Shown in pieces: positions 8,178 through 9,778 of a stretch of DNA of 39,581 nucleotides; the first letter of the stretch is position 1; each line of letters opens with the position of its first letter. A program made the translations under genes and the position numbers. The notes beneath the pieces are model-generated. The model was not told the DNA's origin and searched no databases. It saw nothing but the letters and a program-made list of their open reading frames with translations. The DNA lies in the NCBI GenBank assembly GCA_025055015.1, contig JANWYQ010000139.1, forward strand, positions 1 to 39,581, read 5' to 3'. The stretch is from Caldilineales bacterium. Lineage in GTDB: Bacteria; Chloroflexota; Anaerolineae; JAAEKA01.

Positions 8178-8732
8178 TCAGCTCAGAGCCTGGCGGCCGC
8201 AGGCGTGGCGCACCCCGCAACCGCGGCAGCGGGCTGGGTCCTGGTGGCTGCGCCGCACCTCGGCCTCGCCTTGCGCCTGCCGCATCTCCGCCAGCAGGTC
8301 CAGCAGCGCCTGGCGCAGCGCCGGCGTGTAGGGGATCTGCACGGTGGCGTCGGCGTAGTGGATCAGGCCGTGGGGCGGCGGTCGGCCGTAGGTGTCCTCC
8401 ACCAGCAGGCAGTAGGCGGCCAGCTGCATCACGTGCGAGAGGTGTGCCTGGACCTGGCCTTCGGCGCCCTCAGCGGGAATCGGCGCATGGCTGCGCTTGA
8501 CCTCCACGGGCACGACGCCGGCGTCGGTCTCCACCAGGTAGTCCGGCTTGCCCACCAGCCCATGCCGCGTGGAGATCAGGGGGCGAGCCACGGCGGCCCA
8601 GCGATCGGCGTCGGCGTAGACCAGCCGCCCGCGGGGCAGGCCGCTCTCCTCCCGCGCTCGCCTGGCCCGCCACGCCAGCCAAAGGGCCAGAACCCACAGA
8701 AGCACGCTCAGGCCAAGCAGGGCTGGCCACAT
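8178..8732 (-). CDS. Membrane-anchored Cas4/RecB-like PD-(D/E)XK nuclease, C-terminal half
   Basis: N-terminal TM MWPALLGLSVLLWVLALWLAWRARR; GLVGKPDYLVE, VPVEVKRSHAP, MQLAAYCLLVED (GxxD, ExK, QxxxY); C-terminal CRGCGVRHACGRQAL Fe-S-type cysteines. Confidence 0.78.
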   Translation of the reverse strand: MWPALLGLSVLLWVLALWLAWRARRAREESGLPRGRLVYADADRWAAVARPLISTRHGLVGKPDYLVETDAGVVPVEVKRSHAPIPAEGAEGQVQAHLSHVMQLAAYCLLVEDTYGRPPPHGLIHYADATVQIPYTPALRQALLDLLAEMRQAQGEAEVRRSHQDPARCRGCGVRHACGRQALS

Positions 8733-8744
8733 CTCCGCGTCCGC

Positions 8745-9512
8745 TCAACCAGACCGCCCGGTGCCGCCGTCCCAGGGCAGGATGACGATGGGCACGCCGT
8801 AGGGGCCCCAACGGGTAAACCAGGCGGCGTCCTCCGGGTCCATGCGGATGCACCCGCGCGAGGCCGGAAACACGCCCAGCTCGTCTCGCCCTTGATAGAG
8901 CTTGGTGCCGTCGGGCGCCAGGGTGTAGGGCAGGCTGTGGATCAGGATGGAGCCGCCGGCCTGGAAGAGGTACCACGCGTCGTCCGCGCTGACGCCGTTG
9001 GCCGTAAAGGTGCCCCAGAAAGGCCCCACGCGGCCGCTCCAGCCGGGGGTGTACCACCCGCGGTCCGGGTCGCCGGTGCTCACGGGGATGGAGCGCAGCA
9101 CCAGGCCGTTCTCCACGATGGCCATGCGCTGGGCGTTCTGGTTGACCACGATGTAGGTGCCGGCGGGATCAATGCCATGGCTGCGAGCCACCTCCACCAG
9201 GTAGGGGTCCGGCGTGGGCAGGACGGTGGGAGCCGGCGTGGGCGCGGGCAGGGCCTGAAGGGGCGCAGGCGTCGGCGTGGCGGTGGGCGTCGGCGCCGCC
9301 GCGGGGGTGGGGGTGGCCTCGGGAGTGGGGGATGGCGTCGGAGGCACCATCCAGGGCGGACCGCTGTACACCTGGCCGACCACGGGCGCAACGGCCTGGC
9401 CGCTGCGGCTGAGCCCGCTCAACACCTGCCAGGCGATCACGGCCAGGGCGCTCACCGCCAGCGTCCACAGCGCCAAACGGCCAACCAGGCGAAGGCTGCG
9501 TCGCATCACCAT
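8745..9512 (-). CDS. L,D-transpeptidase (YkuD family) with N-terminal membrane anchor and Pro/Thr linker
   Basis: MVMRRSLRLVGRLALWTLAVSALAVIAWQ; PTPSPTPEATPTP linker; catalytic ILIHSLP...FPASRGCIRMDPEDAAW. Alternative start at 9506, overlapping the upstream stop as TGATG. Confidence 0.88.
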   Translation of the reverse strand: MVMRRSLRLVGRLALWTLAVSALAVIAWQVLSGLSRSGQAVAPVVGQVYSGPPWMVPPTPSPTPEATPTPAAAPTPTATPTPAPLQALPAPTPAPTVLPTPDPYLVEVARSHGIDPAGTYIVVNQNAQRMAIVENGLVLRSIPVSTGDPDRGWYTPGWSGRVGPFWGTFTANGVSADDAWYLFQAGGSILIHSLPYTLAPDGTKLYQGRDELGVFPASRGCIRMDPEDAAWFTRWGPYGVPIVILPWDGGTGRSG

Positions 9513-9778
9513 CCTCCGAGGGCCAGCGCTGTGGCCGTCAAGGCCAGAAGCATGGCCGCTGCGGCCAGGAGCCAGGCCCACCGCTGCTGGCGTTGCGCCG
9601 CAGCCACGCGGCGGCCGTGGCGGCTGTGGGCTTGGCGGCCGGCCTGCAGCGCCTCGACGTTGGTCGAGGGAACACCTTGCACACGGCGCAGCCACCACGC
9701 CCGCGCGCAGTACGCGTACTCGCCGACCTCGCTGGCGCGGATGAGCGGATGGGCAGAGGGAGCGTCAACCGGCGTCAT
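9506..9778 (-). CDS. Short Cas4-like N-terminal-half protein with C-terminal TM
   Basis: LIRASEVGEYAYCARAWWLRRVQG...LQAGRQAHSRHGRRV (Cas4-type YC...W and GxxxH motif) then RWAWLLAAAAMLLALTATALALGGW*. Confidence 0.7.
   Translation of the reverse strand: MTPVDAPSAHPLIRASEVGEYAYCARAWWLRRVQGVPSTNVEALQAGRQAHSRHGRRVAAAQRQQRWAWLLAAAAMLLALTATALALGGW

Follow-up and report, generated by a model that had tools for sequence, protein, structure and literature searches.

Complementary halves of a Cas4-like nuclease are encoded by two genes, each with a predicted transmembrane helix, in Chloroflexota

The two halves in the window

Are two short Cas4-like genes separated by an unrelated gene the remains of one broken gene, or do they encode two parts of one enzyme? 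The question is raised by a stretch of 39,581 nucleotides from a Caldilineales bacterium, called the window here, in which the first-pass annotation described a split Cas4-like nuclease whose two halves flank an L,D-transpeptidase gene. The N-terminal half (N-half; positions 9506..9778, minus strand) has 90 aa and corresponds to the N-terminal region of Cas4, with Cys24, W28 and G47xxxH51xxH54, followed C-terminally by one transmembrane (TM) helix at about residues 67-87. The C-terminal half (C-half; 8178..8732, minus strand) has 184 aa, in which one TM helix at about residues 2-22 precedes a PD-(D/E)XK core (D64, E77, K79, Q103, Y107), with Cys169, Cys172 and Cys178 (CxxCx5C) at the C-terminal end. 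The gene between them (8745..9512, minus strand) did match the L,D-transpeptidase (YkuD) family PF03734, with an E value of 2.5e-16. A translin-like gene (about 9765..10454, minus strand; PF01997, just under the cut-off) lies directly upstream of the N-half, and a DUF3467 gene, also a recurrent neighbour, lies upstream of that (10463..10840, minus strand). The order on the minus strand is DUF3467, translin-like gene, N-half, L,D-transpeptidase and C-half. The N-half begins within the last part of the translin-like gene, and its stop overlaps the start of the transpeptidase gene; about a dozen bases separate the transpeptidase gene from the C-half. Spaced so tightly, the cluster resembles a single operon. 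In addition, the window holds an SbcC/Rad50-type ATPase gene with a zinc hook (18446-21007, minus strand), about 8 kb upstream. Just downstream of the C-half is a gene for a membrane protein with weak BTAD and Trans_reg_C (SARP-type) matches (6482-8077, minus strand), which was not recurrent among the loci examined.

We compared both halves with the Cas4 model TIGR00372. The N-half matched model positions 2-50 (E 1e-6) and was too short to reach the cut-off, while the C-half matched positions 32-178 (E 3e-18) and passed alone (66.1 bits; cut-off 65). Combined, the two halves match the whole model of the Cas4 family (TIGR00372 / PF01930). These complementary matches bear out the claim of a Cas4-like nuclease in two halves; all the motifs quoted for it were present, and the genes lie where the first-pass annotation had placed them. 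Residue and charge statistics were obtained from 67 distinct linked pairs. The results showed that the GxxxH His, the PD Asp, the EVK Glu and Lys, the QxxxY Gln and Tyr and the three C-terminal Cys were present in 67/67 pairs, the N-terminal Cys in 66/67 and the second His of the N-half in 65/67. Neither half alone carries the full residue set, and the N-half is the sole source of the His of motif I and of the fourth Cys of the cluster. The 1+3 Cys layout of Cas4 for a 4Fe-4S cluster is present as residues, with one in the N-half and three in the C-half. That the two proteins would jointly supply one N-terminal and three C-terminal Cys and a full active site therefore holds for nearly invariant residues. 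A single polypeptide is the usual architecture of Cas4, although not a sequence criterion; here two genes are found in nearly all carriers, and we therefore class this nuclease as a Cas4 variant and not as a standard member.

The hydrophobicity of both TM segments is high, with a mean Kyte-Doolittle value of about 2.5-2.6. Counting Lys and Arg within 20 aa, the N-half had 4.2 at the cytoplasmic flank versus 0.5 at the outer end (66/66), and the C-half had 4.1 versus 0.1 (67/67). Because the positive charges cluster next to the soluble part in every protein tested, both soluble parts are predicted to be cytoplasmic, with the N-half oriented N-in/C-out and the C-half N-out/C-in. This pattern fits the earlier proposal that the break falls between two TM helices and that each half could keep a cytoplasmic topology. 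At one locus with adjacent halves (L071), the intervening stop was read as a residue, and the resulting linked chain is used solely as a proxy for the complex. This chain, modelled from an alignment of mostly unpaired halves, reached a pLDDT of 94.6 and a pTM of 0.89, and two long helices formed a hairpin in the linked-chain model. A Foldseek search of the model against the PDB gave the Cas4 structure 8d3l as the top match (E 1e-6), followed by Dna2 and a Cas4/Cas1 fusion; since the alignment with 8d3l spans 266 columns, both halves take part in it. The linked-chain model thus has the Cas4 fold. A natural single chain (L153) was modelled with a pLDDT of 87.4 and a pTM of 0.77, and it also showed the TM hairpin, with Cas4 as its top match.

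Distribution, natural fusions and neighbourhood

We then surveyed 200 genomes of the class, most of which are metagenome-assembled genomes. Both halves were found in 143 genomes (a count that includes G109, whose form is the single chain L111), the C-half only in 2, the N-half only in 1 and neither in 54, so that the halves co-occur in 143/146 carrier genomes (Fisher p 3e-45). This co-occurrence, together with recurrence across the class with invariant motifs, excludes chance. In both C-only genomes the C-half lies near a contig end and the contig breaks off within the adjoining transpeptidase gene, so the missing N-half probably sits beyond the contig end. The genome with the N-half only (G048) has a completeness of 82%, and in its congener (G013) both halves occur, on different contigs. 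Of 60 relatives searched at the protein level, 48 had a member of the C-half family or a nuclease more distant from it, and at the best loci of this search the N-half was a separate upstream ORF in nearly all. No fused form was found in 80 loci of GTDB genomes, almost all from Chloroflexota and mostly from Anaerolineae or Caldilineales/Caldilineaceae. Outside the class, the N-half was also present in 29/29 genomes in which the C-half match was strong (E <1e-54; counted by eye), and one family (f69) has a longer N-half of about 140-150 aa. These findings indicate that the split is common to the class and to other classes of the phylum and is not peculiar to the window locus. Both halves were also seen in a metagenome-assembled genome labelled Acidobacteria (gp4 AA20; L095), a case of either mis-binning or transfer to a lineage outside the phylum. 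Phages gave no match to the nuclease, plasmids gave only ordinary Cas4-like matches at ≤36% identity, and PADLOC gave only Cas4, Cas4/Cas1-type and DruK matches.

The split reading would be in doubt if homologues of the two halves never occurred together or fused. The opposite was seen, both in the co-occurrence and in natural single chains. Three genomes of family f69 carry a natural fusion in the order Cys-TM-TM-core (L144, 3398-4411, plus strand; L151, 3515-4510, minus strand; L153, 2321-3304, minus strand), which is the single-chain Cas4-like protein with an internal TM hairpin that the first-pass annotation had proposed to look for among relatives. Each of the three has Ala or Thr in place of the PD aspartate and is therefore probably inactive. 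A fused form in one genome of the class (L111, about 3809-4369, plus strand) has no TM hairpin and reads VLRK in place of EVK, with the Glu lost; it is a deletion-type fusion and probably inactive. No active or ancestral single-chain membrane form was present among the fusions found. As the fusions lack either the PD Asp or the EVK Glu, fusion accompanies loss of the active site and does not represent an active ancestor. In one genome without a C-half (G083), a broken remnant of the N-half lies directly 3' of the translin-like gene (L122, about 4395-4481, plus strand).

The recurrent gene order around the pair was SSB, DUF3467, translin-like gene, N-half, (transpeptidase), C-half, (HisS), NAD kinase, a TPR protein and RecN; several of these labels, HisS among them, were assigned by eye, and Translin and DUF3467 by profile test. 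At most loci the translin-like gene overlaps the N-half gene or almost abuts it. Its family occurs in 185/200 genomes of the class and is absent from six carriers; it is far wider than the nuclease and not specific to it, and it was rejected as an obligate partner. No cas genes were among the recurrent neighbours.

The junction and the rival explanations

Among the 143 genomes, the halves lay less than 350 bp apart in 62 and 350-3000 bp apart in 32; in 3 more they shared a contig at a greater distance, which reached 2.8 Mb in a genome assembled as one contig, and in 46 they were on different contigs. Co-retention of genes that are not linked argues for a functional partnership. A transpeptidase gene lay between the halves in 20 of the 67 distinct linked pairs, and about 12 gains or losses are needed to explain its presence on their tree. 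In three junctions (L064, L087 and L121) the genes found were DUF433 plus PIN-like, flavodoxin-like/NADPH-FMN reductase-like, and oligopeptidase-like (names by eye). The junction tolerates unrelated inserts. The transpeptidase is present in a minority of pairs, replaced at some loci and lost at others, and it is best seen as an incidental passenger that has no part in the nuclease; we rejected it as a component of the system.

The position of the transpeptidase gene exactly between the halves would suit an intact membrane Cas4 gene broken by its insertion in the window and now a pseudogene, but the split recurs across the class with the catalytic residues kept, mostly without a transpeptidase at the junction. 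At L030, the sister of L066 on the tree, most of the transpeptidase gene has been lost, leaving a C-terminal remnant of about its last 30 codons (1376-1465, plus strand), and the halves remain separate genes. Since intact separate halves are conserved across families, this explanation is already refuted and we give it next to no credence; an assembly error or a pseudogene is likewise ruled out by conservation. Another way to obtain one chain in the cell would be a programmed frameshift or stop read-through, as the halves lie within 30 bp of each other at many loci and sometimes share a frame after a single stop. The junction phases, counted as 11/14/19, include all three, which neither process explains, and unrelated genes separate the halves in many genomes, the window included, while many pairs are unlinked. 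We rejected this alternative and consider its probability negligible; the earlier view that a simple frameshift is insufficient is upheld by the same evidence.

The halves could also act separately: the C-half would then be a nuclease in its own right and the N-half a small membrane protein of different function, and operon history would be the sole reason that they are kept together. The C-half does exceed the Cas4 cut-off alone, and the pairing of the halves is deduced from indirect evidence. Against this, only the N-half has the conserved His of motif I and the fourth Cys of the cluster, co-retention holds even for unlinked genes, natural fusions exist, and the N-half is broken where the C-half is absent (G083). 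We therefore regard separate action as improbable, although less so than the other alternatives. A CRISPR adaptation Cas4 that strayed from its cas genes would agree with CRISPR Cas4 proteins being the closest solved relatives and with a cas1 gene on another contig of the window's genome. However, 46/145 carriers are without cas1 and there is no association with it (p 0.19); the conserved neighbours are SSB, the translin-like gene, NAD kinase and RecN. This origin is very improbable.

The proposed enzyme and its relation to known systems

The explanation that we favour, and hold to be highly probable, is that the halves are two subunits of one obligate two-chain, membrane-anchored, putative 4Fe-4S nuclease of the solo-Cas4 type. 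Each subunit would be anchored in the cytoplasmic membrane via one TM helix. The N-half would contribute the first cluster Cys and the metal-binding His, and the C-half the Asp, Glu, Lys, QxxxY and the remaining three Cys. In the natural fusions the two TM helices form a hairpin; their pairing between the subunits would join the soluble parts at the cytoplasmic face into a complete nuclease. Formation of the heterodimer, the Fe-S cluster and nuclease activity are what we infer from the complementary residues, co-retention and predicted fold. The SSB, translin-like and RecN neighbours and the independence from CRISPR suggest a role in trimming DNA ends during repair or recombination at the membrane, an assignment that we put somewhat below even chances. 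From the genomic context we guess at DNA-end processing at the membrane during repair, or at the handling of DNA that enters the cell. A more speculative and rather doubtful extension is that the active site and Fe-S cluster are completed only when the two membrane proteins meet via their TM helices, so that assembly would be a regulated switch confining cutting to the membrane, e.g., at sites of DNA entry or chromosome attachment; the split would then be old in the phylum, with re-fusion accompanied by loss of activity.

It is unusual for a compact nuclease fold to be divided, with motif I separated from the catalytic core, and kept in two genes over a large evolutionary span. Such an enzyme would offer a model from nature for obligate complementation between the parts of a split enzyme that share an Fe-S cluster, and would put a Cas4-type nuclease at the membrane. 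Chloroflexota proteins likely annotated as solo 'Cas4' would be half-enzymes, each with a partner that passes for a hypothetical protein, and biochemistry on the C-half alone would consequently mislead.

It has been reported that solo-Cas4 is monophyletic in many Chloroflexi, mainly vertically inherited and located outside CRISPR loci (Hudaiberdiev et al. 2017, PMC5704561). The two-gene nuclease resembles it as a non-CRISPR member of the Cas4 family, a Cas4 homologue outside CRISPR loci, and the C-halves very likely fall within this published clade; the main text of that paper is silent on a split, on TM helices and on a partner gene. A literature search, with most subscription literature beyond its reach, found no split or membrane Cas4, and a two-piece membrane Cas4-like nuclease seems to be previously undescribed. 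The Argonaute-associated ACE1 (9iab, 9iac) matches the Cas4-family fold and was solved as one unsplit chain. RecB-family nucleases of the Dna2, EXO5, MGME1 and Adn types have roles in repair or DNA-end processing. They have the PD-(D/E)XK fold in common with the two halves, but their nuclease domain lies in one chain without a TM hairpin. CRISPR Cas4 proteins (8d3l of type I-C; 7mi4, Cas4/Cas1; 4r5q; 4ic1) share the fold, the motifs and the 1+3 Cys. They are single soluble chains that act with Cas1-Cas2, whereas the nuclease described here is predicted to consist of two membrane-anchored chains, and its genes show no association with cas1.
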